Part shown: one piece after another, positions 13,705-28,916 of the stretch | How positions within the stretch are numbered: position 1 is the stretch's first letter | Layout of the letters: each line of letters opens with the position of its first letter | IMG/VR virus record: IMGVR_UViG_3300045952_000234 | Location: 1 to 28,916 of that record | DNA length: 28,916 nucleotides | From: a virus | Strand: one strand, 5' to 3' | Position numbers and translations under genes: made by a program | Notes under the pieces: model-generated | What the model was told of the DNA's origin: nothing | The model's input: only the letters and a program-made list of their open reading frames with translations | Databases searched by the model: none

Positions 13705-14988
13705 ATGAAATTGGCTATCGAGAATATCAGGTTCACACCGTCAGAGGAAACCGACGAGCGCGCAAAGGACATCACCAACATTGCCGACTCACTCAAGGAT
13801 ATCGGGTTGTCTCATCCGGTCATTGTCCGACCCGGTGACAACGGTAACTTTCTACTCGTATCGGGCGAAAAGCGGATTAGAGCTGCTCTCCAACTGGAGT
13901 GGAAGGAGATTGACGTTGAAGTCAGGAACGTCTCCGAAGTCGAAGGCAAAATCATCCAGACCCACGAGAACCTCAAGCGACACAACCTCCCTCTCTGGGA
14001 GCAAGTCGCTCTCGTCGAGGCCCTCCACTCGTTTAGACAGGAGGAACACGGAGAAGCCGAGAGGGGTCGTCCCAAGAAAGGAGAGGACAAGAAGCCAGCC
14101 TGGGGAATTAGAGACACTGCTCAAGAACTTGGAATCAGCCTTGGGTCAACTGCAGAAACTCTCCAGCTCGCTCGGGCGGTCCAGCTTGACCCTTCTCTCC
14201 GAAACATCCAAGACAAAAGGACTGCTGTCCGACTTGTCCGCATTGCTGCACAACGACATCAGGCCGAAGAAGAAGCCGGGCTATCCCCGACTGAAGGCGT
14301 GAATCAGGCGTATCTCGGGGACTCCGCGACCATCCTCTCCAAGTTCCCCGCTCAGTCCATCGACCACTGCGTTACTGACCCGCCGTGGATCAAATACTAC
14401 GAGCCAACCATCACGCTGGATGAAAGGACGCTGCCCGTTTTCAAGGAAGTCTATCGTGTGTTGCGTCACGATGGTTTCCTCGCAGTATTCGCAGGACTCG
14501 ACGACTACTCGTATTACTGCGGATTCGACCGTCGCGACCCGGAGACAGGTGAGTTGATTCACACGAACGGAGAACTGGAGAGAATCGGCTTCAACGTCTC
14601 CAAGACTCCACTCATCTGGCACAAGATCAACTCGCTTTCCCGTCGTGGAGTCCGTTCTTGGGAGTATGACAGGAGCTACGAGTTCGTCATCATTGCCACC
14701 AAGGGTTCACCTGCCATGACGGTCCCGGTGGTTCTGGATGGAGTCAAGAGCTTCGCTGTCGTTCCTCCTCAGAAAATCGCGCACCAGAAACTTCCCGAAA
14801 AACCAATCGACCTCCTCAAGGACATCATCAAAGACCTCACCTACGAGGGGAACGTCATCCTCGACCCGTTCGGCGGCTCCTTTTCCACAGCGGTGGCAGC
14901 CAAGGAGATGAAGCGCAGATACGTCGTCTGCGAGAAGAATCCCGAATACTACCACAGCGGACGTAAACGTCTCGGACTCAAGGAGTAG
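13705..14988 (+). CDS. ParB-like domain fused to DNA methyltransferase
   Basis: The 427-residue protein has an N-terminal ParB/sulfiredoxin-like domain (about 1-110; signature GEKR at 54-57 after a VI-V-P motif), a helical middle (130-195, like a ParB helix-turn-helix), and a C-terminal SAM-dependent DNA methyltransferase. The methyltransferase motif IV is DPPW at 225-228 and comes before motif I, DPFGGS at 387-392, the order of beta-class N6-adenine/N4-cytosine enzymes. The HQKLPEKP segment near 360 is also typical. Such fusions are common in phages and mobile elements. Expected role: protect or mark phage DNA. The start follows GGAGGG. It heads the replication block. Confidence 0.9.
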   Translation: MKLAIENIRFTPSEETDERAKDITNIADSLKDIGLSHPVIVRPGDNGNFLLVSGEKRIRAALQLEWKEIDVEVRNVSEVEGKIIQTHENLKRHNLPLWEQVALVEALHSFRQEEHGEAERGRPKKGEDKKPAWGIRDTAQELGISLGSTAETLQLARAVQLDPSLRNIQDKRTAVRLVRIAAQRHQAEEEAGLSPTEGVNQAYLGDSATILSKFPAQSIDHCVTDPPWIKYYEPTITLDERTLPVFKEVYRVLRHDGFLAVFAGLDDYSYYCGFDRRDPETGELIHTNGELERIGFNVSKTPLIWHKINSLSRRGVRSWEYDRSYEFVIIATKGSPAMTVPVVLDGVKSFAVVPPQKIAHQKLPEKPIDLLKDIIKDLTYEGNVILDPFGGSFSTAVAAKEMKRRYVVCEKNPEYYHSGRKRLGLKE

Positions 14989-15341: not shown

Positions 15342-17846
15342 ATGCCCCTCGGTCAACGGGTCGAGGGACAAGGTCCCCATGACGCTAAAATCGTCATTGT
15401 AGGGGAGGCTCCGGGCAAGGACGAAGAGGAGCAAGGGCAACCATTCGTCGGCGCGTCGGGAAGGCTTCTCAATTCAATGCTGTTGGAGGCGGGCATCCGT
15501 CGTTCGGATTGCTACGTCACCAACGTGGTCAAGGTCCGTCCGCCTTCTAACAACCTGCGAAGGTTGAAGGAGATTGGTGTATCGATCGAGGATGGTATTC
15601 CTCAGCTCTGGCAGGAGATTGGAGAAATCAATCCGAACGTCATCTTAGCACTAGGAAATCTGTCCCTCAAGGTTCTGACTGGTAAGGGGTCAGGTTTTTC
15701 GGGCATTCTTAAATACCGCGGGTCCATCCTTCCCTCCACAAACCTCGATTGTAAAGTAGTTCCTACCATCCACCCGGCAGCCTTCCTCCATTCGGAGGGT
15801 GAGGAGGGCGCTGGTGCGATGAAATATCGGATGAGGCACGTTGTTCGCTTCGACCTCGAACGGTTGAAGGAGCAAAGCCTTTTCAAACGATATTCCCCTC
15901 CAGAGCGAAACCTCGAAATCATCCGTAGCTCAATCGCCCTCCAGCGATTTCTCGATCTCTACGCGGACAAGAAGATTGTAAGCGTTGACATCGAGACAGT
16001 CTACGGTATCCCTGTCTGTATCGCTCTGGCCTTCAACGAGTGGCACGGTGCTTCGATCCCACTGCTCGACATCATGTCGTGGCAGAATCTCCAGGGAATA
16101 CCGAGACACGAGCTTGCCATAATGTGCCAGATGATTGCCCGACTCTTTGCGAGGAGAGACATCCTCGTCATCGGGCAGAACTTCAAGTTCGACCACGACA
16201 AGCTAGACAGCATCTGCGGAATCAAAATCAGGAATGTGTATTGCGACATCATGATGTTGGCTCACGCCATTCATTGTGAGTTCGAGAAGTCGCAGGCTTT
16301 CTTAGCGTCTCTTTATACGGAGGAGCCGTATTATAAGGATGAGGGTCGAGAGTTCGACTGGAAGAAGGATAAGGTAGACCGGCTCCTCCTGTATAACGCT
16401 AAGGACGCTGTCGTTGCATTCGAGATTTACCTACGCTTGGTTGAGGCCGCGCGTGATTTGGTAGTCCCAGGGTTCCCGAATTGGCTCGACGAGTTCTTCT
16501 TCGGTTATCAGATGAAGCTCCATACCTTCTACAAGGACATGGAGGAAGTTGGCCTCCTGACCGATGAGAAGAGGAGGAAGGAACTCATCGCTGAGTATGA
16601 TGAGAAAATCAAGTATGCTCAGTTCGAGCTGAATGAGATAGCGGGATGGGAGTGCAACGCGAACTCTCCCAAGCAGGTCGCAATTCTCCTCTATAGACAG
16701 TTTAAGTTGCCGCAGAGGAAGGGCGTCGATGAAGATACGTTGGTCGCTTTGGAGGCAAATTCAGCTAAACTACCCGAACACAAGCGTGCAATCGAACTTA
16801 TCGGAACAATCCGCCGACTTCGTAAGTCAAAGGGAACTTATTTTGAAGCTAAGCCTGACTACGATGGACGGATGCGAACTTCTATCCGAATCTGTGGAAC
16901 TGAAACCGGAAGAACGTCCAACAGTATCCTTAAACCTCCGGTTCGTCCCACAAAAGTGGGATTGGCCTTTCAAACGATGACGAAGCACGGGGAGATAGGA
17001 GCCGAGCTACGCTCTTATTTTAATGCGGACCCCGGCTACAGTTTTGTCGAGATGGACCTCTCACAAGCGGAGGCCAGGATCGTAGCTCTCCTGGGACGAG
17101 ATGAGAAAACGCTCAAGCTATTCGACGATCGAGTTGACATCCATCGACTTACCGCGAGTTGGATATTTGGGGTTTCAACTGAGAAAGTTACTGGTGAACT
17201 GCGGTTTATCGGTAAGACTTGTCGACATGCTGGAAACTACGATATGGGCAAACGGCGGCTCATGCAAATTGTTAATACTGACGCCAAGAAATTCAAGATT
17301 GGTATCAGTATTTCTGAGTGGAGAGCCGGACAAATCCTCGACAAGTTCCATCAGTTCTGTCCTAGTATCCGCCAAGTGTTCCACGCTGATGTCAGACAAG
17401 CCCTCGACACGAATGACCGTGTCCTTGTCTCTCCTTTCGGACGATACCGAAAGTTCTTTGACCGCTGGGGGGAGGACCTCTTCAGGGAAGCCTACTCCCA
17501 CATTCCCCAATCAACAGTTCCAGACCATCTACGACGAGCTGGACTCCGTGCCCTCGAGCGTTTTAGAGACGATAAAATCACGCCTCGATTCATTGGACAA
17601 AAGACTCCTTTTGCGATCGAAGCGCACGACGCATTCCTCGCCATCGTCCCCAACGAATACGTCGGACGATACGTCGAAATCATGAACGAGGAGATGAATC
17701 GTCCAATCGACTTCTCGAATTGCACGCTCCCACGAGGGTTGCTGGTCATTCCGTCAGAGGCCAAGATTGGCCGGAATTACAAGGAGTGCAAGATTAAGGG
17801 CTGCTACACGTGCGAGGGTATGCACGACTACAAGGTGGCAGCATGA
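15342..17846 (+). CDS. UDG-like domain fused to family A DNA polymerase
   Basis: An 834-residue fusion. Residues 1-190 resemble a family 4 uracil-DNA glycosylase: GEAPG at 21-25 with E-QGQPFVG after it, NVVKVRPP near 61-68, and HPAAF at 144-148; the Fe-S cysteines usual in family 4 are missing. Residues 200-370 are a 3'-5' exonuclease with VDIET (215-219), GQNFKFDHD (278-286) and YNAKD (351-355). Residues 390-815 are the polymerase: motif A MDLSQAEAR (571-579), motif B around 621-640 (RFIGK...NYDMGKRRL), motif C EAHDA (760-764), where the usual Glu after HD is Ala. A Cys cluster (CKIKGC, then C824) ends the chain. It is the replicative polymerase of this phage. Similar UDG-polymerase fusions are, as I recall, known in some phages with unusual bases such as SPO1. 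Confidence 0.88.
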   Translation: MPLGQRVEGQGPHDAKIVIVGEAPGKDEEEQGQPFVGASGRLLNSMLLEAGIRRSDCYVTNVVKVRPPSNNLRRLKEIGVSIEDGIPQLWQEIGEINPNVILALGNLSLKVLTGKGSGFSGILKYRGSILPSTNLDCKVVPTIHPAAFLHSEGEEGAGAMKYRMRHVVRFDLERLKEQSLFKRYSPPERNLEIIRSSIALQRFLDLYADKKIVSVDIETVYGIPVCIALAFNEWHGASIPLLDIMSWQNLQGIPRHELAIMCQMIARLFARRDILVIGQNFKFDHDKLDSICGIKIRNVYCDIMMLAHAIHCEFEKSQAFLASLYTEEPYYKDEGREFDWKKDKVDRLLLYNAKDAVVAFEIYLRLVEAARDLVVPGFPNWLDEFFFGYQMKLHTFYKDMEEVGLLTDEKRRKELIAEYDEKIKYAQFELNEIAGWECNANSPKQVAILLYRQFKLPQRKGVDEDTLVALEANSAKLPEHKRAIELIGTIRRLRKSKGTYFEAKPDYDGRMRTSIRICGTETGRTSNSILKPPVRPTKVGLAFQTMTKHGEIGAELRSYFNADPGYSFVEMDLSQAEARIVALLGRDEKTLKLFDDRVDIHRLTASWIFGVSTEKVTGELRFIGKTCRHAGNYDMGKRRLMQIVNTDAKKFKIGISISEWRAGQILDKFHQFCPSIRQVFHADVRQALDTNDRVLVSPFGRYRKFFDRWGEDLFREAYSHIPQSTVPDHLRRAGLRALERFRDDKITPRFIGQKTPFAIEAHDAFLAIVPNEYVGRYVEIMNEEMNRPIDFSNCTLPRGLLVIPSEAKIGRNYKECKIKGCYTCEGMHDYKVAA

Positions 17847-19048
17847 CGTGGATAGAACATCTTCTCGCCGTCACTGTAGAATCGGAATCCCCGAGGAAGT
17901 ATTATTATTGGGCGGGCCTCTCGGCAATAGCGGGAGTAGTGAAGAACAATGTCTACCTTGACAAGTTCTATTACAAGCTCTACCCCAACATTTTTGTCAT
18001 CCTCGTTGGGAAGTCCGGAATTCGCAAGGGACCGCCTGTTGCTCTCGCTAAGCGTCTGGTCACAGAAGTTGGAAATAACCGAGTTATATCCGGACGCACG
18101 TCGGTCCCAGCTCTTATCACTGAGCTTCGCACTGCTCGGACCTTCAATAATGGCGGCCCCCCGCTCACGGACGCTACGTGCTTCATTGCGACTTCGGAGT
18201 TCGCTGGTTTTGTTATACAGGACCCCCAAGCTCTTACCACACTCACGGACCTGTATGATGGAGATTATAACCCCGAATGGGTCAATCGCACGAAGGGTTC
18301 TGGGCTTGAGACACTGAAGAATCCGTGTGTGACAATGATAGGAGCCAGTAATGAAATACACTTTAGGGACGCAGTCCCCGATAACGCTCTCGGTGGAGGC
18401 TTCGTCGCGAGGACATTCATTATTCACGCGGATAGGAAGTCTGGGATTAACCCTCTCACTTCAGCACCAAAGGAGGCTCTATCTGTTCCTAAGCTGGCAG
18501 AGTATCTACGTATCCTCAGTCAACTGCGGGGACAGTTTACTTATTCTCCGGGAGGCAAAGCGTTTTACGACGAGTGGTATTCGCGGTTCAGTGAAAACGA
18601 GTATCAAGATTCAACGGGGACCATTGAACGATTACACGATCACATCCTCAAAGCATCGATGCTCATTTCCCTCTCACGGAAAACCGACCTCGTCCTTGAG
18701 GAAGCGGATATTCGGGAAGCAATCGATTCCTGTCAAAACTTCGTGCCCGGAGCGCGTCGAGTCTCTATGGGAGGAGGGAAGTCTGCCACCGCTCCCGGAA
18801 CTGCGGTCTTCCTGAAGGAGCTACTGGCGAGGAAGGACCACAATTACATGCTAAGCCGAGTCAAAATGCTCCAGAAGCATTGGGACTACTTTGACTCGTT
18901 CGAGCTTGACAGAATCGCGGAGAGTTTGGAGGCCCAGAAAGCTATCACGATGAAGCTACTGGACAATGGGGATGGGAGGAAAGAGTTGTTCTACATCCTG
19001 ACGCCGAAGATCATCGAGAACTACACCAAAATGGAGAAGGAATCATGA
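17843..19048 (+). CDS. DUF3987-like P-loop ATPase, possible replicative helicase
   Basis: ATG 17843 overlaps the polymerase stop (ATGA) and gives 401 residues. The start (WIEHLLAVTVESESPRKYYYWAGLSAIAG) and the P-loop region LYPNIFVILVGKSGIRKGPP (about 47-65) resemble DUF3987/YfjI-type helicase-like proteins. The Walker Thr/Ser after Lys is Gly here, so the site is degenerate. A Walker B-like strand CFIATSEFAGF follows near 110. The end is helical with winged-helix-like features (ISLSRKTDLVLEEADIREAI). It probably assists DNA unwinding or priming beside the polymerase; similarity is judged by eye. Confidence 0.6.
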   Translation: MTWIEHLLAVTVESESPRKYYYWAGLSAIAGVVKNNVYLDKFYYKLYPNIFVILVGKSGIRKGPPVALAKRLVTEVGNNRVISGRTSVPALITELRTARTFNNGGPPLTDATCFIATSEFAGFVIQDPQALTTLTDLYDGDYNPEWVNRTKGSGLETLKNPCVTMIGASNEIHFRDAVPDNALGGGFVARTFIIHADRKSGINPLTSAPKEALSVPKLAEYLRILSQLRGQFTYSPGGKAFYDEWYSRFSENEYQDSTGTIERLHDHILKASMLISLSRKTDLVLEEADIREAIDSCQNFVPGARRVSMGGGKSATAPGTAVFLKELLARKDHNYMLSRVKMLQKHWDYFDSFELDRIAESLEAQKAITMKLLDNGDGRKELFYILTPKIIENYTKMEKES

Positions 19049-19266
19049 TTCAGTTTTTGCATTGTCACTCGTGTGGAAAGCAGGTGTCGACAGGGTTTAC
19101 CCCAGTCCCTACCGACACCCCCGACGGTGGTATCATCGTTCGCGCTTGGATCGAGTGCCCCGAGTGCATCGAGAAGCGGGCTACTTCCTCTGACCCCGAC
19201 GCTTTGCCTTCTGTTCCCTCCGGCGTTGTGACCTCTCCCGAGGTGAAAGGTTCTCCGGAAGATTAG
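19045..19266 (+). CDS. Zinc-ribbon microprotein, last gene of rightward block
   Basis: The 73-residue protein starts at the ATGA overlap with the previous stop. CHSC at residues 7-10 and CPEC at 38-41 make a zinc ribbon; the last 28 residues are Pro/Ser/Asp-rich and probably disordered. Its disordered end overlaps, on the opposite strand, the basic C-terminus of the convergent virion gene by 86 bases. Confidence 0.62.
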   Translation: MIQFLHCHSCGKQVSTGFTPVPTDTPDGGIIVRAWIECPECIEKRATSSDPDALPSVPSGVVTSPEVKGSPED

Positions 19267-21925
19267 AACCCTTCATAAACGACGGAACGAACTGCTCTTT
19301 CAACATGTTCGGGTCGCTAGAGACTAGCTCCTGCAAGCTCCACTCAGGCACAGGGGAGAGACCCTGAACGGCTCGTGCTCCACCTGTTACACCAGCACCT
19401 AGGAGGAAGGGGAGGGCGTATGGACCAGCGATGGCAGAGAGAACTCCAAGGCTTGCTGGGTCATCGACGTTGGCTCCAGCCGCCATCCCTGCTCCTCCAG
19501 CTCCTAGTGCCAACCCACGAGTTTTCCAGTTCCTACCTGGACGGACCAACCCCTGCCTGAACATATTCGCTGGTGTTTTTCTGAATGGAACGAGATACTG
19601 ACCAGCCTTGGTGTTCAAGCCTAGAGCCTCGGCCATTGGATTCTCCTCGGTGAGAAGAATTTCTTTAGCCTCGGCTCGGGTCATCCCTGACCTTACAAGA
19701 GCATTCTCTGTAGCTGTATCACCGGCTCCCATGACCCTCTGGGGAAGCCCGAGATATTTGCCCACAAAGGTATCTCTTTGTCCAGGCACAGCACTGGGAT
19801 TCTGATTGCTTTTGAACGCCTGCCACCAGTCTTTTGCAGTTTCAGGTTTGAACAACTCTCTGATTGGTGCTATCGTTCCTCGCTCTGCTGAGGCAATCCC
19901 AGTTGCTCCGAGGTTGCCGAGAACTGACTTCATGGGAGCGCGCCCTGCGAGCATTGCTGTCACACGGAGAGCGTTGACCTCATCCCAGACGCGATTACCA
20001 GCAGCCTGCATCGTGGAGGGAGCGAACAATCCTGCCGGAGCCTGACCAGTTTCGTCAGAGAGCATCTTCCTGAATCGAGGAGAGAAACCCCCTCCTGGAC
20101 CAGCCTCTTGAGTCATCTGAATGTCGGGTTGGATGTCGTGAGGCATGGTGCGACCCCCTGTGGCCTCTTGCTCGTTCAGCCACTTCTGGTAGTTGGGGTC
20201 GTTCTCCATCACCTTACCGAAATCCTCAGCGTCAGGGCCACCTTTCATTGCCTTGTTCAGACGACCTTGAGCCAACATACGTCGAAACGCAGAGGGTCCA
20301 CCGAGTGCTGAAGCTACTCCACCTGCACCAGCACCCATGAGACCTATCCGTGCCCACTCGTCCCAGTTGGACTCAGGGTCATCTGGAACGGCTAGAGCGG
20401 CTGCCGGGGCACCGACTGCCAGTGCCTTGGACCCACCCTTTCCACCCGGCTTGGGCTTGGTTATATCGGTCCTCTCACCAGCAGCTTTCTTGAGGTTTTC
20501 CTGGAATCGAGCCTCAAATTCAGCTCTCCTGATATCCAGCTCTTTGATTGCGTTCGCGTCTCCCTTTGCAGCCTTGTCGCTAAGCTTCTGCTCTCCCATC
20601 TGGGCGTAGGGACGCTGCTTCGACGCCTGACGAGGTGGAGGAGTCTCAGCCTTCTTGATTTCAGCAGCTGTGACCGGCTTCTCGGATACCGGCTTTTGTT
20701 CAGCGGCTGAACTTTTACTGGTTTTTGGAGTCGTGGATTTTGGCGGGGCAGGAGTTTTTTGTGGCCTGGTCGCCAGCACTTCAGCAGCTTTCTTGTTCCC
20801 CCTCGCGGCAAGAGACTCGAGGGTTTCCGTGGGATAGTTCTCGAACTCGTTCTTTGGTTTGGGAGCAGCTGCCTTCGGTGGAGCCTCCGTCTTGGGAGCC
20901 TTCGCCTTAGGTGGAGCCTTGGGAGGTGGAGCCGGAGGAGCCGTCGTGGAAACCTTCGGTGTGATTTGCACCTTCCCACGTGGGAGAACCGGCTCGACAT
21001 CCGACAAGACACCTGACCAGATTTCGTCAGGAGTCAATCCGGCGCGCTCCGCTGCCGCCGCAACTCCATGCTTCTCGACCATCTGCGGAATGGTTGTCTT
21101 CTGGAAGGCAGGAGGAACCTTGGCTGGCATCGTCGTTCCAGCCCCAGGAACCTGCATGTTTGTCACGGTAGCTGGCCACGCACTCGGCTGACGAGCTGAG
21201 AACGATGGCGTCGGAGGAGTCTGCCCGACCTGGAACGTGGGTTTCAGACCAGTGCCAGATATGGGGGCTTCGAGAGGGTTCCTGGGGACGCTGATACTGC
21301 CGCCTCCAGGTGGAGGAGAGACGACGGAACCAGCAGGCATCGAGCCTGTCCCGGTGAAAGCCGGAGGAGGCGTGACCTTCGGTTTGGGAGTGAACATCCG
21401 ACTCTCAGCCACTTTTGCAGCAGCCGTTGTCGCTCCACGACCAACCGACTTCGCACCCTGCCCGATTGCACCTCGAACTCCCTTGAATGGGAGAAGCATC
21501 TCGGCCCCGACCAGAGCCTTGGAACCGAGTCGCTGCATCCTTGAGGAGGAACCACCACCAGCACCGATAGTCGCTTCGATTCCGGGGTCCACCTGCTCCT
21601 TGATGGTGCGAAACGGATTCTGCACCATGCTATGAACAGCCTCGTCAGCACCCTCCCCGAATCCTGAAACTGTGGAGAGGAAAGCGTCAGGATTCTCCCC
21701 TGAGAGGCCGCTGTAGATGTTGCTCCCTACGTCAGAGAGGACACCACCGAACTGGCGGATGGCTCCACGCTGACGTTTTGCTTGACGCTTGACGCCAGTG
21801 AGAAAGTCCCCGATGCCTCCTGCGATCGCGCTACCGTAACCTCCTGCCGAAGCAGAGGAGGGAGCATTACGAGCCGCCATTCTCGCCTTGCGAGCGGCTT
21901 CTCGTTCAGCAAAGGTGTCAGGCAT
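19181..21925 (-). CDS. Large Ala/Gly/Pro-rich probable virion protein
   Basis: A 914-residue protein read leftwards, last of the late operon. Residues 1-160 are Ala/Gly-rich with short helices, 160-480 a Pro/Lys/Ala/Thr-rich low-complexity region (many APPK, PPP runs), 480-700 Gly-rich with weakly hydrophobic helices, and 700-880 more ordered with hydrophobic Gly/Ala segments near the end (GLALGAGGAGMAAGA). The last 25 residues are very basic (RRREQKAKRRGQRK). Composition and place suggest a structural or internal ejection protein that contacts DNA or membrane. The start ATG overlaps the upstream stop (TAATG) with GAGGAGG before it. No family is recognised. Confidence 0.7.
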   Translation of the reverse strand: MPDTFAEREAARKARMAARNAPSSASAGGYGSAIAGGIGDFLTGVKRQAKRQRGAIRQFGGVLSDVGSNIYSGLSGENPDAFLSTVSGFGEGADEAVHSMVQNPFRTIKEQVDPGIEATIGAGGGSSSRMQRLGSKALVGAEMLLPFKGVRGAIGQGAKSVGRGATTAAAKVAESRMFTPKPKVTPPPAFTGTGSMPAGSVVSPPPGGGSISVPRNPLEAPISGTGLKPTFQVGQTPPTPSFSARQPSAWPATVTNMQVPGAGTTMPAKVPPAFQKTTIPQMVEKHGVAAAAERAGLTPDEIWSGVLSDVEPVLPRGKVQITPKVSTTAPPAPPPKAPPKAKAPKTEAPPKAAAPKPKNEFENYPTETLESLAARGNKKAAEVLATRPQKTPAPPKSTTPKTSKSSAAEQKPVSEKPVTAAEIKKAETPPPRQASKQRPYAQMGEQKLSDKAAKGDANAIKELDIRRAEFEARFQENLKKAAGERTDITKPKPGGKGGSKALAVGAPAAALAVPDDPESNWDEWARIGLMGAGAGGVASALGGPSAFRRMLAQGRLNKAMKGGPDAEDFGKVMENDPNYQKWLNEQEATGGRTMPHDIQPDIQMTQEAGPGGGFSPRFRKMLSDETGQAPAGLFAPSTMQAAGNRVWDEVNALRVTAMLAGRAPMKSVLGNLGATGIASAERGTIAPIRELFKPETAKDWWQAFKSNQNPSAVPGQRDTFVGKYLGLPQRVMGAGDTATENALVRSGMTRAEAKEILLTEENPMAEALGLNTKAGQYLVPFRKTPANMFRQGLVRPGRNWKTRGLALGAGGAGMAAGANVDDPASLGVLSAIAGPYALPFLLGAGVTGGARAVQGLSPVPEWSLQELVSSDPNMLKEQFVPSFMKGSNLPENLSPRERSQRRREQKAKRRGQRK
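20698..20712 (+). promoter_or_regulatory. Palindrome copy 4 inside a late gene (GTTC-AGCGGCT-GAAC)
   Basis: GTTC (20698-20701) and GAAC (20709-20712) are spaced by AGCGGCT, the same length and GGCT end as the other copies, and the left arm reads TTGTTC. It lies inside the Pro-rich linker of the minus-strand gene, so chance or a second role is possible. I give it less weight than the three upstream copies. Confidence 0.3.
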
Positions 21926-23097
21926 TACCCACCTCCTCGCTGCATAGACATGATTTCGTTGATACGGTCCTGAAGGGCCTCTTGGAAATCAGCCCAATCA
22001 TCAGCAGAAAAGTCGCCTGGACCAACCTGTCGACCAGTCCAGGTTTTTCCAAGGAATTTCGACCATTCAGGATCATCGGCCATCTGCTCAAGGGCCAAAT
22101 CTCGAGCCGATTGCTGAGCACCTGGAGTAACGAAGACGTTGTTCTGGCTACGTTCGGGAGGATTGAGCGCTCGGTAAACGCTCGCTCCTGCAGTAGCCTC
22201 CTGAGCAGCCACCCGACGTGGGTCAAGCTGCTGATCAAGAGCGAGACGACCTCTCGCAGTTGCAGCGTTCGATTCTGCCGCTCCTGCCTGCCGTTGAGAG
22301 ACCTTGAGTTGAGCGGCTTGAATGGCTTTGGCCGGAACGATGAAGCTGTCGTTCTGGTCGTTCTTGTTCTGGTAGAGGATGGAGCCATCTTCCTGAACGA
22401 AATGGTCGTAGCCAGGACGATTCTGGGCCTTGGCATACGCTTCAGCCCTGGTCCTTGCGGCTTCAGCAGTGACTCCACGGGTCGTAATCAGATTGTCTGA
22501 TTCCCGCTTCTTCATGAGATATTCGTCGTATTTCAGACCCATCTCCCGAGCCGCCTTGAGGCCCGCGAGCTGAGTCCTCAGGTCCTCCTGCTCGATGTCA
22601 GCCTGCTCCTTCAAGGTGCCCAGACGATTGGAGTAATCGGCCATCGCAGACCGATACTTGCTCGTATTGACATCTTGGGCAACTCGGATACCTTCGCCGG
22701 GGTCCCTCATGCCAGCAGAGAAGCCTGAGAGACCAGCCGCGATTCGAGTCAACCAATTCGGCTTGTATTCCTCCCGACTGGGGACTTCGTTGAGAGCCTG
22801 ACGATAAGCTGAAAGACCCGGTCCGGCTTGCTGTCGAAGCCTTTCCATCTCCTCGTAGAATCGAGAAGCCTCATCCTGAGGAGGACGAACCGGAACGTCC
22901 TGTTCAATGTCAGGGCCTCCCGTATCGAAGTTGATCTGAGGGCCAACTGGAGCTGGCCCCCCGAACAACCCACGATAGGGTTTTGACGGCATCGAGGGAG
23001 GAGCACCCCCCATCATTGGAGAGCCTCCTCCTCTCATCGGGCTTTGGGCCATGATCCGGCTTTGCCGAATCGATGAAATGGGATTACGCAGCACCAC
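21925..23097 (-). CDS. Probable virion protein, helical with Gly/Pro head
   Basis: The 390-residue product starts at GTG 23097, overlapping the upstream gene by 14 bases, with GGAAGG upstream; ATG at 23052 is an alternative but lacks a ribosome binding site. Residues 1-70 are Met/Gly/Pro-rich, 75-230 strongly helical with Glu/Arg/Ala heptads (long coiled coil around LKEQADIEQEDLRTQLAG), 240-270 contain a small beta insert (FVQEDGSILYQNKND), and the end is acidic helix. It fits an internal virion or tail component. No family recognised. Confidence 0.68.
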   Translation of the reverse strand: MVLRNPISSIRQSRIMAQSPMRGGGSPMMGGAPPSMPSKPYRGLFGGPAPVGPQINFDTGGPDIEQDVPVRPPQDEASRFYEEMERLRQQAGPGLSAYRQALNEVPSREEYKPNWLTRIAAGLSGFSAGMRDPGEGIRVAQDVNTSKYRSAMADYSNRLGTLKEQADIEQEDLRTQLAGLKAAREMGLKYDEYLMKKRESDNLITTRGVTAEAARTRAEAYAKAQNRPGYDHFVQEDGSILYQNKNDQNDSFIVPAKAIQAAQLKVSQRQAGAAESNAATARGRLALDQQLDPRRVAAQEATAGASVYRALNPPERSQNNVFVTPGAQQSARDLALEQMADDPEWSKFLGKTWTGRQVGPGDFSADDWADFQEALQDRINEIMSMQRGGG

Positions 23098-24625
23098 GTG
23101 CCACCGCCTTCCCGAGGAGCATCAGGAGACCCATCACATCGACGAGGGCAATGCTCTTTCCGTCACCCACGCCGAAGATCTCCTTCATGTCCTGAGCCAT
23201 CGGTCCAAGGTGTCGTTCACCGAGTTCCGACTTGTATTCCCACGTGAAGATTGGGAGGCTCTTGAACTTCTCGACGATGTTCAAGTCGGTCACTTCTTCG
23301 ATGTTGGTCTTGAGGGTTCGGTCCGACGTAGCGGCCTTTGCACCGACTCCGATAGCCCCGAGACCGGTCATGCCGCCTGCAAACGCTCCGGCGAGTCCAC
23401 CGATTGTGGAGACCCAGTCGCGCTTCGGATTGTTCTGCATCCTCTGGTCGATACCACCGGAGCGCTGCCCGTAGTGGAGGTCGCGACCCTGGAGGTTCTT
23501 GTCGAGATACATCTCAACTTCCCCTGGGCGCATACCGTAGAGCGACTGCATTCCCTCGAGACCCATCATGCGAGAGTCACGATTGAAGTCAGCCTGCCAC
23601 TTGGCGTCGGCGGCAGATTGAGCAGCACCGGCAGCCCCTCGAGCAGCTGCGGATTCTGCCATTCCTTCGAGGCCCTGAGTCCCGAACATCTTGCCCTTCT
23701 GGATCAGACCCTGCATCCCGATTTCGTTGCCGCCTCCAGCGTTGGCTGCACCGAGCCGGGTTCCTGCGATGGCGTTGACCATGTTGGCCTCGGTCTCGGA
23801 GGCTCCCCGTAGACCAGCCAAACGGTTAGATGATAGCAGGCTCTGGAGAGCTGCTTCAGATTGTGCAATATTCGTTCCACCCCATTGCCTCCCTTGTCTC
23901 ACCTGGTCGGAGATTCCGAGTTCGGCGTTGAGGGCTGCCTCGGCACCTGCCGCGGACTGTTGACGAGCAAGCCGACCAGCAAGAGCAGCTCGTCCTGGAC
24001 CGTAACCACCCTGAACTGCCGCACCACGATTGGCTTCCTCCTGCATCTGACGGTAAAATGCAGGAATTGTCGAGGTCGCTCGACTTCGCATGTTGGCGCG
24101 GTCTTCCATCGAGAGTCCACCTGTTTTGGCGAACTCGTCGAAGACCCCGCCGCCACGCATCCGGGCCTGACCAGCCGCATCGACGCCTCCGGACGTTCCC
24201 ATCTCCTTGAACTTGGCGATGTTCTCGTCCATCGACTTGATGCGGGCAGGGTCCCACCCACCTGACGCGGCTAGGTCGCCGAGGTGTCCTTGGAATTGGT
24301 TGAATCGACCCGTGTCGACTCCTCCCCCTCCCATGAAGTCCCGGTAGGACCCTTCGACGTCCCCAAACCGAGTGTCTCCAGCCCCACCGCCACCACCACC
24401 GCCGCCCCCGCCACCGCCATAAGCAGCAGGATTAAAATCATATTTCCCCTCCGCAAAGTCCTTGAAGCCCTGATACTGGACTCCATACATGTCGGAGGCG
24501 CGACCCGTGGACCCACCAATACCTTTGTTGACCGTGTCCATGTATTGGTTGTGCTCGCCCTGGGAGGCGGCACGGTCCTGAGCCAACATTGCGTTGGTCT
24601 TTTTCTGTTCTTTTCCACCACCCAT
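23084..24625 (-). CDS. Gly/Ala-rich virion protein with S74-like chaperone end
   Basis: The 513-residue protein has a Gly run of 12 near residues 69-80, an Ala/Gly/Gln-rich helical body (190-400), and a last 80 residues (434-513) that match the intramolecular chaperone (peptidase S74) domain: SDRTLKTNI, a hydrophobic strand near FTWEYKSELG, and HLGPMAQDMKEIFG. The Ser-Asp pair at 434-435 is the expected self-cleavage site of S74 proteins. The domain is shorter than usual and lacks the long terminal helix seen in tailspikes. It probably trims itself after helping the body fold. It starts at ATG 24625 after AGGAAGG. Confidence 0.75.
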   Translation of the reverse strand: MGGGKEQKKTNAMLAQDRAASQGEHNQYMDTVNKGIGGSTGRASDMYGVQYQGFKDFAEGKYDFNPAAYGGGGGGGGGGGGAGDTRFGDVEGSYRDFMGGGGVDTGRFNQFQGHLGDLAASGGWDPARIKSMDENIAKFKEMGTSGGVDAAGQARMRGGGVFDEFAKTGGLSMEDRANMRSRATSTIPAFYRQMQEEANRGAAVQGGYGPGRAALAGRLARQQSAAGAEAALNAELGISDQVRQGRQWGGTNIAQSEAALQSLLSSNRLAGLRGASETEANMVNAIAGTRLGAANAGGGNEIGMQGLIQKGKMFGTQGLEGMAESAAARGAAGAAQSAADAKWQADFNRDSRMMGLEGMQSLYGMRPGEVEMYLDKNLQGRDLHYGQRSGGIDQRMQNNPKRDWVSTIGGLAGAFAGGMTGLGAIGVGAKAATSDRTLKTNIEEVTDLNIVEKFKSLPIFTWEYKSELGERHLGPMAQDMKEIFGVGDGKSIALVDVMGLLMLLGKAVARGAA

Positions 24626-24626
24626 G

Positions 24627-25013
24627 TCACACCTTCCTAAGCAGGAGTTCTCCTGGTTCGTCTACGATTTCAAAGGAGAAGTGTTTGGCAACAACGGATG
24701 CGAAGGAAGGATCTCTCGCGAAAAGATACATATCTTCGAGGCCGACTCGTTCAGTGCCTCGAATGCCCTCAACGATGAGGAGCTTGAGAGCTTCGACCTT
24801 GTGCCGTGGTCGAGCATCCTTATCGAGGATTAGCACCGCTTCGGCAAACATCTTGACCTGACCATAGGCCACGATATTACCATCATCGTCCTCGATAACA
24901 GCGTCAATGATGGAGCACTTGCGATTCGGAACCGAGAAGTCGTTAGCATGATGTTTGCGCCAGATTTCGTCGATTCGTTCGATATCGCTCTCTCGAAAAG
25001 GTCGGAGTCTCAT
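24627..25013 (-). CDS. GNAT-like acyltransferase fold protein
   Basis: The ATG at 25013 overlaps the upstream stop (ATGA), giving 128 residues. The pattern is GNAT-like: MRLRPFRESDIERIDEIWRK strand and helix, an acidic beta hairpin (IEDDDGNIVAYGQVKMF), then a helix around the acyl-CoA region (VEALKLLIVEGIRG) and a last strand pair (FSFEIVDEPGELLLRK). The pyrophosphate loop Q/RxxGxG/A is not obvious, so catalytic activity is uncertain. It follows a methyltransferase and a radical SAM gene and may add another modification to the same target. Confidence 0.6.
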   Translation of the reverse strand: MRLRPFRESDIERIDEIWRKHHANDFSVPNRKCSIIDAVIEDDDGNIVAYGQVKMFAEAVLILDKDARPRHKVEALKLLIVEGIRGTERVGLEDMYLFARDPSFASVVAKHFSFEIVDEPGELLLRKV

Positions 25014-26383
25014 GATTTCGGTTTCAGAATTTTGACCTCGGCTGACATGTCGTGTTCCTGCCAAACGTAGTCGAAGTTTGAGGCAAGAAGATTGTCACCA
25101 GCAAAGTCCCATTCACCGTAGGAGTAAACGACCAGATACTTGGTGCAGGCTCTCAGGTGCTTGATGAGTGTCTCGGCCTTCTCCGGTTGGACCTCTCGGA
25201 ACCTGTTCACAGATATCAGGACCAACTGATACATATGAGGGAGGAAATTTCGAGCGCTGAATATGTCCCCTGAGAAAACCTGATCCTTCCCGATTCTCTC
25301 GACAGCCTTCCAGTATCTCCCGTCGTCCATTTCGATTCCGTAAGGCTCCAGGAAGCTGTGTTGAGCCTTAAGTCTTTCGAGGAGGAGACCGTTTCCACAA
25401 CCGAGGTCAAGCATCTTCCCCGGTTCAAAAAGCACCTTTCCGACCGCCCGGAGCACAACCTCGTGAGCCGTATTCTGAGCCGTGAAAGAACTGAAGCCGT
25501 TGTCGGTCCAGACATCCTTGAGATTCTCAATGCTCAAGAGTTGGGGCCGTGCATGTCGAAAAGGGAACTCGATTCCGGTTTCTCCCTCCACCGGATACTG
25601 AGGACCATCGTAGTCCACGATCGCCGGTTTCGCCAGTGCATCGGAGGAGGTGATGATTTTCACGACCGGAGTTGTTATGATTGCTACCCCGTGGAGAGAT
25701 GACCAACGAGCAGGCCAGTTCAACATCTCTATGAGCCAGTAGATTTGCTCTTTGTAACCAAGATGAATTCCGTGGGCTAGGATAGCCTCCCCGATATCCG
25801 ACGTCGGCTCACAGTTGAAGGAGCACGGAAGATGAAAGACAGAACGAACTCCGAGATGACGGAGGAGGATGTTGCACCTGAAAGGACCGGAAACGAGACC
25901 AGAACGGAACCCGGCCATCGGAAAGGTCAAATCCCGCCAGCCTCCAACATCCCACCACTTCTGAAAAAAGGCCGAACAGCAGACAGGATAGCCGAGAAAA
26001 AAGCCGATAGCCTGCTGGTCCTTTTCCTCCCAAAACTTAAGAAATGCGGTGGCATCGTGACCAAAGTAAACTCGATAGGCCCAGGGCTTACTCGGGACAA
26101 ATTCGGTCGTGGCATTCCCATAAACTTCAGGGACGCCCTCCTGACCCAACATGACCATCTCAAGCTCGTTTTCCATGCACCATCTCTGGAACTTCACGAT
26201 TTCGCCCGGCCGAACCGACTGTAGTCCACCGCGTCGCATGTTCGAGATGACAGTTCGTTTTTCGATCTCCAGCCAGAGGTTGTTGATTTCGCGAATCCTC
26301 GGTTCCCAAGTAGTCCGAGCCAGCTCAGAGGCCCAGACTATTCGAGTGAATTCAGGAAGACTGAAATTGAGGCGGTGGTCCAT
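25010..26383 (-). CDS. Cys-rich (DUF483-like?) domain fused to SAM methyltransferase
   Basis: The 457-residue protein has two parts. The first (about 1-260) contains GYPVCCSAFF (CC at 135-136), C170, and HLPCSFNCEPT (C187, C191), a pattern I associate with DUF483-type proteins; these Cys could bind a metal. The second (about 300-457) is a Rossmann methyltransferase with DLGCGNG at 325-331 and an acidic YGIEMDD strand end that should bind SAM. The gene overlaps the end of the radical SAM gene by 32 bases, with GGAG before its ATG. It probably modifies a protein, most likely one encoded beside it; the target is inferred. Confidence 0.75.
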   Translation of the reverse strand: MDHRLNFSLPEFTRIVWASELARTTWEPRIREINNLWLEIEKRTVISNMRRGGLQSVRPGEIVKFQRWCMENELEMVMLGQEGVPEVYGNATTEFVPSKPWAYRVYFGHDATAFLKFWEEKDQQAIGFFLGYPVCCSAFFQKWWDVGGWRDLTFPMAGFRSGLVSGPFRCNILLRHLGVRSVFHLPCSFNCEPTSDIGEAILAHGIHLGYKEQIYWLIEMLNWPARWSSLHGVAIITTPVVKIITSSDALAKPAIVDYDGPQYPVEGETGIEFPFRHARPQLLSIENLKDVWTDNGFSSFTAQNTAHEVVLRAVGKVLFEPGKMLDLGCGNGLLLERLKAQHSFLEPYGIEMDDGRYWKAVERIGKDQVFSGDIFSARNFLPHMYQLVLISVNRFREVQPEKAETLIKHLRACTKYLVVYSYGEWDFAGDNLLASNFDYVWQEHDMSAEVKILKPKS

Positions 26384-27584
26384 TGATTATCACTCCAGGG
26401 ATTCCTCCCTCATATTTTTGGTCCGTATCGAGATGCCAGTCCTCGTGTGGAGTGTCGATGTGCGGAGTGTCAACATGAGGAGTATCCGTATGGTCTCCCA
26501 TCCAATGAGTTACGAGTCCTTCGGTTTTTCGTTGACCGTCGACGATTTGCCGCCCTTCGAGAAGTAAATCTTTCTCGATCCTCTCGAAAAGAGAATACCA
26601 CATTCGACAATCACGTGTTCGGTTGCGCCAGTCTCCGTCGATTGCGGTGCCGGGACACTGTCCCTTGCAATGAGCGAAATACTTACAATCCTTACATCCT
26701 CCGAACTCTTGAGGTGTGTGGTGGAGTAGGATATATCTCTCAAAGCCAGGCGTATCCGCCTTAATCCAGTTGACACCATCCTTATTAGTCCGACCACAAT
26801 TACTACGAGAACCGTCAGGACCAACGCCCTGAACAGCATTCGTAGTAGCTGGATCGCAGTGATTCCAGACGCAAGAAACATGAGGGCTAAGCTCAGTAAG
26901 CAGAGCCCTAATGTCACAATAAGGTTCAACTCTAAGTTTCGACGTCTTCGACCATTCATAGAGGTCCAGAAAGGCAGCTATCGTTTCTTCCTCCGATAGT
27001 GCGTCTTGCTCTCTACCTTTCTCGACCTCCAGATTGTGGAGGTTGATGAACCTTACTCCGATTTCCTGGAGACCTTCCAACCAGTTCATCAGAGCACCGA
27101 TTCTAAACGGACTCGCGTTCTCCTTGTGAATAGTGACGATGATGGAAGGTGGCATCCCCTCACGACAGAGTTTCGTTATTGCATCCAGTGTGCGCTCGGT
27201 GGCAACCAGAGTAGAATCGTAATCGCCACAGCTCCGCAGAGAATTAAGAGGGCCAGGACCATCAACAGATATTCCAACACCGACATTGTATTTCTTAAAA
27301 AGTTCGATATGGTCCGGCGTAATGAGCGATCCGTTGGTTTGGAGGCCATTTTTGTGGAACCTCTCGAAACCGAATTTCCAGACTTCTTCGAGGTGTTCGA
27401 TTGGAGCGAGAAGCGGCTCACCTCCGAAAACAGCGAAGTCCCAGTTCATGTCAGAGAGGACCTTCTTCGCGCGCTCCCAATTCCGAGGCGAGTTGATATT
27501 ACCAGCGTCTCGCATTGGGTCCTGATAACAATACGAGCACTTCAGATTACACGCGATGCCGACGGGAGTATACTCTATAGTCAT
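26352..27584 (-). CDS. Radical SAM/SPASM enzyme with His-x-Asp repeat tail
   Basis: A 410-residue enzyme. CNLKCSYC (C12, C16, C19) binds the radical SAM 4Fe-4S cluster; GGEP (54-57), LQTNGS (81-86) and SVDGP (106-110) are further core motifs. The SPASM domain is complete: C243-x14-G-x4-C263, then C297-x2-C-x5-C306-x3-C310 and C326, as in peptide and protein maturases (anSME, sactipeptide and related enzymes). Residues 365-386 then hold five His-x-Asp units with His at 365, 370, 375, 380 and 384, copying the neighbour's repeat. The gene overlaps the repeat protein's stop by ATGA, so the two are made together. Likely role: radical modification of that protein. Reaction unknown. Confidence 0.9.
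   Translation of the reverse strand: MTIEYTPVGIACNLKCSYCYQDPMRDAGNINSPRNWERAKKVLSDMNWDFAVFGGEPLLAPIEHLEEVWKFGFERFHKNGLQTNGSLITPDHIELFKKYNVGVGISVDGPGPLNSLRSCGDYDSTLVATERTLDAITKLCREGMPPSIIVTIHKENASPFRIGALMNWLEGLQEIGVRFINLHNLEVEKGREQDALSEEETIAAFLDLYEWSKTSKLRVEPYCDIRALLTELSPHVSCVWNHCDPATTNAVQGVGPDGSRSNCGRTNKDGVNWIKADTPGFERYILLHHTPQEFGGCKDCKYFAHCKGQCPGTAIDGDWRNRTRDCRMWYSLFERIEKDLLLEGRQIVDGQRKTEGLVTHWMGDHTDTPHVDTPHIDTPHEDWHLDTDQKYEGGIPGVIINGPPPQFQSS
26427..26492 (-). repeat. Five-residue His-Asp repeat at the end of the radical SAM gene
   Basis: This DNA encodes residues 365-386: DTPH units with His every five residues (HTDTP, HVDTP, HIDTP, HED) and a last HLD. The coding strand repeats GATACTCCTCAT-type units, and the 12-mer ATGAGGAGTATC (plus strand) occurs here and twice within the neighbouring repeat gene (near 27610 and 27968). 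Confidence 0.85.
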
Positions 27585-28441
27585 GGTCCAAGATTCACCG
27601 GGTCGTCCGTATGAGGAGTATCGTTATGAGCTACGTCAGTATGGTCCTGGTGAGGCACGTTTACAGCAGGAGCGTCACCGTGGATGTCTCCGTGTGAACC
27701 GTCCGTATGACCATCCGAGTGACCCGAATCACCGTGCCCACCATCACCGTGAGAATCTCCATGACCTGTGTCACCGTGGCTATCACCGTGGTCGTTATGA
27801 GTTTGATCATTATGGCCGCTATTGCTACCTGGAGACTGGTCGTAGTGAGTGTCTAGGTGGTGTCCATCTGACGCGTCATTAAATGTGAGGTAGCCGTCAA
27901 AATGACTCGCGGTATCCCAGATGTCATAATGGGTATCGTTAAACGGAACGTCTCCGTGGTCATCTCCATGAGGAGTATCACCGTGAGTATCACCATGACT
28001 GTCACCATGAGGTGTGTCGTCGTGGGCATCACCGTGAGCACCATCAGTGTGGGAGTCACTATGAGGAGAATTGGTATGAGGAACATCGACGTGAGAAGAA
28101 GCGCCTCCTCCATCACCGTGAGCAACGTCGCCGTGGGTATATCCTCGAAAGGTTCCAGTTTGGTGCATCCAGAGAAACCAAACATGGTCAACCCAAATGG
28201 AACCAGGAGCAGGGAGACCAAAGATATCTCCAGGGACTCCCATATGAAGCCGATACATCCGAGTTCCAGCCTCGTTAATGTATCGGAACTCCGGCCCGTC
28301 GACGTAGATAGACCCCGGCGCTGCCTGACCAACACCAAGATTGGTCAGAAATTGTCCGGAACATCTCCACTCGCTGCCATACTGGTCAACGTAGTGGAAA
28401 TTGTCGCCGTGAATCCAAATCGAGCCAGGAGCCTTAGCCAT
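27581..28441 (-). CDS. Repeat protein with His-x-Asp tract, probable fibre component and modification substrate
   Basis: The 286-residue protein has three N-terminal repeats starting APGSI at residues 4, 41 and 78, exactly 37 apart, each with an aromatic strand pattern (SIWIHGDNFHYVD, SIYVDGPEFRYIN, SIWVDHVWFLWMH). From residue 102 to about 279 it has about 33 His, of which about 31 are in His-x-Asp, most often HGD, HSD or HTD, with Ser, Thr, Gly and Pro between. There are few hydrophobic residues in the tract, so it should be an extended chain or a metal-bound fibre. It follows a tail-fibre-like gene and overlaps the radical SAM gene. The His/Asp pattern suggests metal binding or radical modification; both are inferred. 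Confidence 0.85.
   Translation of the reverse strand: MAKAPGSIWIHGDNFHYVDQYGSEWRCSGQFLTNLGVGQAAPGSIYVDGPEFRYINEAGTRMYRLHMGVPGDIFGLPAPGSIWVDHVWFLWMHQTGTFRGYTHGDVAHGDGGGASSHVDVPHTNSPHSDSHTDGAHGDAHDDTPHGDSHGDTHGDTPHGDDHGDVPFNDTHYDIWDTASHFDGYLTFNDASDGHHLDTHYDQSPGSNSGHNDQTHNDHGDSHGDTGHGDSHGDGGHGDSGHSDGHTDGSHGDIHGDAPAVNVPHQDHTDVAHNDTPHTDDPVNLGP
27605..28135 (-). repeat. Region encoding the His-x-Asp tract
   Basis: About 530 bp of degenerate 9- to 15-bp units based on CAY-GGN-GAY (His-Gly-Asp), interrupted once around 27.85-27.93 kb by a less repetitive segment (residues about 172-200, FDGYLTFNDASDG). Units vary in length and codons, unlike a fresh tandem duplication, so the protein pattern seems to be kept by selection. 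Confidence 0.85.
28139..28432 (-). repeat. Three 37-residue repeats
   Basis: Residues 4-40, 41-77 and 78-101 (last one cut short) each start APGSI followed by W/Y, I/V, a charged turn, an aromatic strand and G(S/T). The spacing of exactly 37 residues twice supports duplication of a small beta unit. Confidence 0.8.
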
Positions 28442-28916
28442 TACGCTGGGACGAATTTATTGGTGCCAACCGGAATGATGAGACCAGTGGGAATACTGCA
28501 TCCCATGTCTCCACGAACAATCAGACCAGCGATAGTCGCTGCTGCATTCCGAACGTAAAGAGCGTTTTCGGTCTTGATGCTTGCTGCGTTTATGAGGACG
28601 CCTTGAGAGTTTGCAGGAGAGGTTATGACGGCCACCCAGTTTCCGGCCATCCCAACTACGTTGAGAGCGATATCAGTGGTAGACGCAATATGGAAACGCC
28701 CTCCATTGAACGTCATGTTACCGCCCAGGTTGGCGTTACTGATACCGACAGCGTTAAGATTTCCTCCTGAAATGTTGACGGCGTTGGCGTTCTGGTCCGC
28801 CATCGTCCCCAGTGCAAGAGCAGACTTGAGAGCAGGGATAGTCGTGACGCCAGTGCCACCACCATCCACACCAAGGACTTTGTCAACGAATGCGCTCCCG
28901 TTCCACTCCTGGAATT
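28441..28916 (-). CDS. Tail-fibre-like protein, C-terminal part (runs off the window)
   Basis: The frame is open to the window's right edge, so only the last 158 or so residues are seen. The visible start reads QEWNGSAFVDKVLG followed by GGGTGVTT, then MADQNANAVNISGGNLNAVG and beta-helix-like Gly/Asn/Ala repeats, all typical of phage tail fibre or receptor-binding distal parts. Its stop is TAA on the minus strand, and the next gene's ATG starts at its last base. It places the following repeat protein in the fibre or tail-tip region. Confidence 0.8.
   Translation of the reverse strand, partial: FQEWNGSAFVDKVLGVDGGGTGVTTIPALKSALALGTMADQNANAVNISGGNLNAVGISNANLGGNMTFNGGRFHIASTTDIALNVVGMAGNWVAVITSPANSQGVLINAASIKTENALYVRNAAATIAGLIVRGDMGCSIPTGLIIPVGTNKFVPA

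Follow-up and report, generated by a model that had tools for sequence, protein, structure and literature searches.

Phage proteins with tracts of aromatic-x-Asp/Asn triads and the SPASM radical SAM enzyme that possibly crosslinks them

Crosslinks made by radical SAM enzymes are a familiar feature of small peptide natural products. Among the described systems, those closest to the one discussed here, a protein with a long His-x-Asp (HxD) tract encoded next to a SPASM radical SAM enzyme on the IMG/VR virus record IMGVR_UViG_3300045952_000234 (the window, comprising the whole contig of 28,916 bp), are the triceptides (OscB/GrrM, XncB/XyeB, YxdB, HaaB, YhhB; PMC11002830), in which a SPASM enzyme likewise adjoins its substrate. 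Triceptide substrates are short leader-bearing precursor peptides with few motifs, and the known bonds between residues i and i+2 link Trp to Asn/Asp, Tyr to Asp, and His C2 to Ala/Arg (PMC11002830). In ChlB/ChlH (PDB 9gm3, 9gmc; cited in PMC12636437) a radical SAM multiple cyclophane synthase is fused to an Asp/His beta-hydroxylase; an entry in the reference list of PMC12636437 gives ChlB the title of 'multiple cyclophane synthase'. In the His-Xaa-Ser (Hxs) systems a His-repeat protein adjoins SPASM maturases (PMC9062424). A module of a radical SAM gene, a DUF483 gene and an uncharacterised gene was also reported in the Thermus phages Cumys and phiMa (PMC11437467); that paper suggests DNA modification on the basis of cyanobacterial homologues located near deazapurine genes, and its passage on the Cumys module makes no mention of a repeat.

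The window locus shares with the triceptides the aromatic(i)-x-Asp/Asn(i+2) motif, for which Tyr/Trp joined to Asp and His as the ring partner are known separately; as in triceptide substrates, an aromatic residue at position i is followed at i+2 by a residue that is often Asp/Asn. In contrast to short leader-bearing precursors, the predicted substrates are structural-type proteins of 200–1500 aa with about 20 to 100 triads, mostly HxD: in the window a 286-aa protein with PGSIW-type modules, at other loci the C-termini of proteins of 700–1470 aa. They are phage-encoded and accompanied by a DUF483-like partner, and the enzyme stays below the triceptide family cutoffs. With ChlB the system would share several cyclophanes per chain; ChlB acts on peptides containing Asp and His and gives the highest TM-scores among the PDB matches of the enzyme. 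The ChlB substrate is a precursor of a ribosomally synthesized and post-translationally modified peptide (RiPP), its partner is an HExxH hydroxylase, and the identity is about 19%. The Hxs systems, in which HxS repeats go with two radical SAM enzymes, HxsB and HxsC, are only the loose parallel that the initial annotation of the window took them for: here the repeat is HxD/N, there is one radical SAM enzyme, and HxsB is absent from its 25 best NCBIfam matches. The Cumys/phiMa module is the same system, without the methyltransferase domain or the GNAT-like gene found in the window. No paper on HxD tracts with a radical SAM enzyme was found in the open-licence literature, a restriction that makes this weak evidence.

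The tract and its association with the enzyme

The tract starts at residue 103 and comprises 184 residues, among them 33 His, 31 of which belong to HxD triads; these counts, given as approximate in the initial annotation, are exact and lie far above those of composition-preserving shuffles of the tract (6.8 ± 2.1, maximum 16, n=10,000). The 31 triads stem from 22 distinct 9-mers, His and Asp are each encoded by both codons, and Tandem Repeats Finder detected a single array of just 39 bp; for these reasons a DNA microsatellite was rejected as the origin of the repeat. The tract is a protein-level feature. When the window protein was aligned with its four nearest homologues, the triad His was kept in 90.5% of the cells and the triad Asp in 80.8%, its commonest replacement being Asn, while the middle residue was kept in 42.7% and the linkers in 39.9% (Fisher p ~4e-33, the cells not being independent). 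At least two PGSIW-type modules occur in 36 of 90 viral tract proteins and in none of 33 bacterial ones. The label 'fibre' derives from genomic context, P0001 having no family match.

The rules of the motif were examined on 133 dereplicated segments, defined as His-rich by His density and retained if at least half of their His had Asp/Asn (D/N) at +2; an earlier enrichment run had used aromatic-defined segments, which biased it toward the result, and was redone on these segments defined by His only. D/N stands at +2 of 95.6% of the His residues, and of 33% of Phe/Tyr/Trp versus 4.8% of the other non-His residues, the proportion for Phe/Tyr/Trp being the higher in 84 segments and the lower in 23. 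The distance from one triad start to the next is irregular, mostly 3 to 9 residues, and the middle residue is nearly unconstrained except for Pro (6 of ~4,050). One phage (L004) has mostly HxN triads, and in the tracts of L078–L080 W/Y/H-x-D/N triads are mixed. Judged from these sequences, the motif is better stated as aromatic-x-Asp/Asn than as HxD. A fixed offset of two residues combined with variable spacing favours a local unit of three residues over a periodic fold or a regular metal lattice, and of the two possibilities raised in the initial annotation, cross-linked and metal-binding residues, the aromatic-x-Asp/Asn motif points to the first, in the form of i/i+2 cyclophane crosslinks. 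Three bacterial loci carry H-x-K tails: H-V/I-K repeats with Lys at the third position end large neighbour proteins at L138 (upstream open reading frame 2-1183), L147 (2841-5975) and L150 (3370-5988).

Relatives of the enzyme were collected by an IMG/VR scan with the window enzyme followed by a profile scan, giving 78 viral and 80 genomic loci. The first scan alone returned seven relatives; in every one the enzyme bears an HxD tail and its gene directly follows that of an HxD protein. The enzyme frame is intact at 64 viral loci, and a tract protein is present at 59 of these: adjacent upstream at 47, elsewhere on the same strand at 11, on the other strand at one; five have none. Thirty-five of the 47 adjacent pairs overlap by 4 or 1 base, and dereplication at 92% leaves 42, 5, 1 and 4 loci in the respective classes. 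At four of the five tract-less loci no more than 3.5 kb of DNA lies upstream of the enzyme; the fifth, L038, is closely related to phiLo, in which the tract genes sit 4–11 kb off.

The reverse search, made in viral sequences with two DNA patterns of four consecutive HxD triads, gave 234 loci among the matches listed, which are a sample and to which the following counts apply. Simple in-frame or out-of-frame microsatellites (HRDHRD..., HQDLL...) were set apart by the diversity of middle residues and spacing. The enzyme is found at none of 154 chance-match loci without a tract, at 2 of 27 simple-repeat or low-variety loci and at 41 of 53 degenerate-tract loci. Whole-record searches located it elsewhere in the record for three more degenerate-tract loci (L197, L290, L379), and the record of L209, classed as simple by the filter, also carries it. 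Of the nine left, L186, L251 and L271 resemble microsatellite frames, L255 and L366 end at the contig edge, and four are true exceptions, taken up below. This search put to the test the refuting condition named in the initial annotation, HxD proteins widespread without a SPASM gene, and the proposal of a phage SPASM enzyme acting on the HxD protein was not refuted by it. At L205 (10403-13315) two tandem radical SAM genes of the family adjoin one tract protein.

The enzyme, its partners and its relatives

The enzyme scores 60 bits with PF04055 (Radical_SAM; cutoff 29.5). C12/C16/C19 and eight SPASM Cys are all invariant among 53 relatives; the latter include CX2CX5CX3C, and the Cys set for two auxiliary clusters is present. 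The initial annotation was correct in describing a complete radical SAM/SPASM gene that overlaps the HxD gene by ATGA. Its best NCBIfam scores include DynA, the maturase of dynobactin (top), and, among cyclophane-forming enzymes, AmcB, YhhB, GrrM/OscB, XyeB and FxsB; PADLOC gave a weak match of the core domain to a viperin-type radical SAM protein (E=1.6e-13, 48.7 bits). The AlphaFold2 model (mean predicted local distance difference test, pLDDT, 87; disorder confined to the HxD tail region) aligns over most of its length with ChlB and with anSME, the anaerobic sulfatase maturase; these two are the best PDB folds found by Foldseek, ChlB having the highest TM-scores (0.66/0.72).

The C-terminal HxD tract of the enzyme itself was not part of the initial annotation. 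A tail with at least three HxD/N triads is present on 48 of 64 viral enzymes and 5 of 73 bacterial ones, and is missing in the phage subgroup L042–L056, in which the tract gene sits a few genes off. Its candidate roles may be self-modification, tethering or docking.

The gene following the enzyme had been read as a 'Cys-domain methyltransferase'. A methyltransferase domain is indeed present; the remainder is a DUF483-like domain with conserved Cys/His, recognised across loci with a profile derived from the window protein. It occurs at 62 of 67 viral and 72 of 74 genomic (bacterial) loci and is fused to the radical SAM enzyme in many bacteria; it is a core component. The conserved residues C135, C136 (GYPxCC), H184, C187 and C191 suggest a metal or iron-sulfur site. 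Against the gathering score of 25 for PF04467 (DUF483), phiLo_141 reaches 20.4 bits and Cumys_11 16.1 bits, and the window protein gives no match; the three form one homologous set. The fold of the DUF483-like part remained unmatched, since all Foldseek matches displayed went to the methyltransferase domain. The latter was found at 56 of 67 viral loci but at just 30 of 74 genomic ones, and was therefore rejected as a core component; it is accessory. The GNAT-like gene, likewise assigned to the cassette at the outset, was dropped from it: it is present at 18 of 141 loci, often 0.6–2 kb from the DUF483 gene and split off by other genes, and the window protein has no Pfam match at E<=10, Acetyltransf_1 included (one relative, E=0.2).

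A tract protein is nearby at 38 of 73 intact bacterial loci, in Acidobacteriota, Bacteroidota, Planctomycetota, Chloroflexota, Bacillota, Nitrospinota, Actinomycetota and others, and the bacterial tract is often the C-terminus of a protein of 900–2,000 aa. Small bacterial tract proteins at L090 (5098-5340) and L091 (5225-5884) have twin-arginine-like signals (TRRALLGAGFALPL; SRRRFIPNVIM), which suggest that the product is exported.

The position of the tract genes in other viruses bears on the location of the protein. In the Thermus phage Cumys the HxD gene (Cumys_13, followed in the module by the radical SAM gene Cumys_12 and the DUF483 gene Cumys_11) comes after baseplate and collar-fibre genes. 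The gene preceding it, Cumys_14, ends in PVGTDRWAP, similar to the C-terminal PVGTNKFVPA of the tail-fibre-like gene that lies directly upstream of the HxD gene in the window, with a 1-base overlap (taATGg). The Thermus phage phiLo (L411, MH673673.1) has three consecutive tract proteins (16512-22368) with 55, 101 and 72 HxD after its baseplate wedge genes, about 4–11 kb from a lone radical SAM gene, so that a single enzyme may act in trans on several substrates. At L031 the tract forms the end of a protein of 1,077 aa, which has a LamG lectin domain and matches a virion structural family. These contexts support a tail-fibre or adhesin location, and the tract protein quite probably sits on the tail.

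Proposed crosslinking and competing explanations

Sequence and its comparison give the order of the genes, the association, the motif, intact cofactor sites and a predicted fold; from these we infer a scheme for the modification of the tract, its bond, the roles of the partner proteins and the benefit to the phage. The substrate would be a tail-fibre-type protein, the C-terminal two thirds of which form a chain of discrete aromatic-x-Asp/Asn triads, mostly HxD. The SPASM radical SAM enzyme, whose translation is coupled to that of the substrate, would remove a hydrogen at the Asp/Asn(i+2) beta-carbon, and this carbon would then be bonded to the ring of the aromatic residue at i, usually the His imidazole. 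Each triad so joined would lose two hydrogens (-2.016 Da) and become a three-residue cyclophane, and a chain would contain tens of them; there are 31 potential sites in the window protein and 228 over the three neighbouring phiLo proteins. The DUF483-like protein would be an accessory to the enzyme, delivering the substrate, acting in redox or carrying out a second tailoring step; in most phages a further mark may come from the fused methyltransferase. The outcome would be a fibre segment that is rigid, protease- and heat-resistant or adhesive. That a phage SPASM enzyme acts on the HxD protein of its own phage, as proposed in the initial annotation, is strongly supported by the two-way co-occurrence, by conservation limited to His and Asp, and by the tract on the enzyme. 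The tract is very probably its substrate, and an i/i+2 ring-to-beta-carbon crosslink is the likely product; these gradings, like that of the tail location, are judgements and were not computed. The whole proposal, that phages build poly-cyclophane tail fibres with tens of His-Asp (or Tyr/Trp/Phe-Asp/Asn) C–C crosslinks by means of a SPASM enzyme and a DUF483-like partner, is given a probability of roughly 0.55.

Several observations weigh against this proposal. We know of no example of His joined to the beta-carbon of Asp; by analogy it would be a natural combination of known three-residue cyclophanes, and the HxD chemistry in that sense extrapolates from His-Ala/His-Arg on the one side and Tyr-Asp/Trp-Asp on the other. 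For no member of the family did we find chemistry, a mass spectrum or virion proteomics, and neither a leader peptide nor a recognition domain was identified. The enzyme reaches no NCBIfam equivalog cutoff (best 82 bits versus 450), its scores falling far under those of the curated three-residue cyclophane-forming families (3-CyFE: GrrM, XyeB, FxsB, YhhB, AmcB), so that sequence alone leaves it outside the cyclophane formers, and the fold match of the predicted model with anSME is as good as that with ChlB. The four true exceptions of the reverse search (L308, L335, L356, L362) share one homologous protein with a short HxDT tail; their records lack the family enzyme, and just one of the four contains any radical SAM gene. 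At 35 of the 73 intact bacterial loci no HxD/N tract was detectable nearby, many of these falling in one proteobacterial clade (Bradyrhizobium and others; placements rest on a quick tree). In L143, the tested member of this clade, a RiPP radical SAM C-methyltransferase (TIGR03975, 588 bits) adjoins the enzyme, which also points to peptide modification.

A different chemistry on the same triads, be it a C–N bond from His N to the beta-carbon of Asp, Asp epimerisation, decarboxylation, or beta-functionalisation without a crosslink, would fit the association and motif evidence equally, and second marks might come from the DUF483-like and methyltransferase proteins. DynA has the top NCBIfam score, and the dynobactin enzyme makes a C–C and a C–N crosslink (PMC11002830). 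The replacement of His by Phe, Tyr or Trp is nevertheless hard to square with a nitrogen bond or an Asp-only modification, and the strict i to i+2 aromatic requirement favours participation of the ring; such chemistry is rather doubtful. An unmodified metal-binding fibre segment, with an enzyme that docks to it or modifies something else, would suit the His/Asp composition, and the HxD tail of the enzyme could serve as a docking tag; metal-binding HxH fibre tips exist in T4-like phages. The exchange of Asp for Asn at homologous sites and the phages with mostly HxN or with W/Y-x-D triads are unsuited to metal binding, the triad spacing is irregular, and the enzyme is a near obligatory companion in phages, so that this explanation is improbable.

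Modification of DNA, suggested in PMC11437467 for Cumys and phiMa, could draw on the methyltransferase domain fused in many phages; it is very improbable, given that Cumys and most bacterial loci have no methyltransferase, that the motif of the substrate recurs on the enzyme, whose best scores are with peptide maturases, and that the HxD protein is the product of the third gene in the published module, where the text does not describe it as a repeat protein. As a last alternative, the enzyme would be an anaerobic sulfatase maturase generating formylglycine, placed beside a fibre gene by chance. anSME is its best PDB match by sequence and by fold, and phiLo_142 is annotated as an 'arylsulfatase regulator'; yet the enzyme scores 72 bits with TIGR03942, the NCBIfam family of these maturases, against a cutoff of 349. 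The residue after SPASM Cys263 is Gly and not Asp, the base in anSME, the cassette contains no sulfatase, and the association with the tract holds in both directions, all of which makes this the least credible of the alternatives.

Layout of the locus and its meaning

The features of the window are collected in Table 1; the cassette genes lie on the minus strand throughout and are ordered from position 28916 downwards.

Table 1. Coordinates of the HxD cassette and adjacent genes in the window
Feature	Position	Strand	Basis
Tail-fibre-like gene, 3' part, open at contig end	28441..28914	-	weak PHROG tail fiber match, E=0.08
HxD protein, 286 aa, predicted substrate	27581..28441	-	homologues upstream of the radical SAM gene in 47/64 viral loci
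N-terminal part of HxD protein, three PGSIW-type modules of ~35 aa each	28139..28441	-	sequence; modules also in Cumys_13, phiMa_29
HxD tract, 184 aa	27584..28135	-	33 His, 31 H-x-D, 1 H-x-N, 2 F-x-D
Radical SAM/SPASM enzyme, 410 aa, predicted cyclophane synthase	26352..27584	-	
CxxxCxxC (C12, C16, C19), SAM-binding [4Fe-4S] cluster	27528..27551	-	invariant, 53 relatives
SPASM region, 8 invariant Cys (238, 243, 263, 297, 300, 306, 310, 326)	26607..26873	-	
C-terminal HxD tract of the enzyme (5 H-x-D), predicted disordered	26427..26492	-	sequence HTDTPHVDTPHIDTPHEDWHLD; model
DUF483-like domain (aa 1 to ~278) fused to class I methyltransferase (aa ~292-457)	25010..26383	-	
GNAT-like gene, small, judged outside the conserved system	24627..25013	-	no Pfam match
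Gene ending in endosialidase-type chaperone (PF13884)	23084-24625	-	

Two further genes of the window were noted. At 15342-17846 uracil-DNA-glycosylase, 3'-5' exonuclease and family A DNA polymerase domains are combined in a single protein, and at 13705-14988 a ParB-like N-terminus is apparently joined, as read from the sequence, to a DNA methyltransferase-like C-terminus.

The system appears to be a so far undescribed way to harden or functionalise a structural protein chemically. If the crosslinking proposal is true, the tract protein would be, to our knowledge, the first radical-SAM-modified virion protein, and phages would have a covalent, oxygen-independent route to stiffer or functionalised fibres. 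It would explain a gene pair left unannotated in dozens of viruses and many bacterial phyla, give a context to DUF483-like proteins, and provide an enzyme usable to crosslink designed repeat proteins. The tracts would then represent a new class of crosslinked biomaterial, common to many bacterial phyla, in which they cap large proteins.

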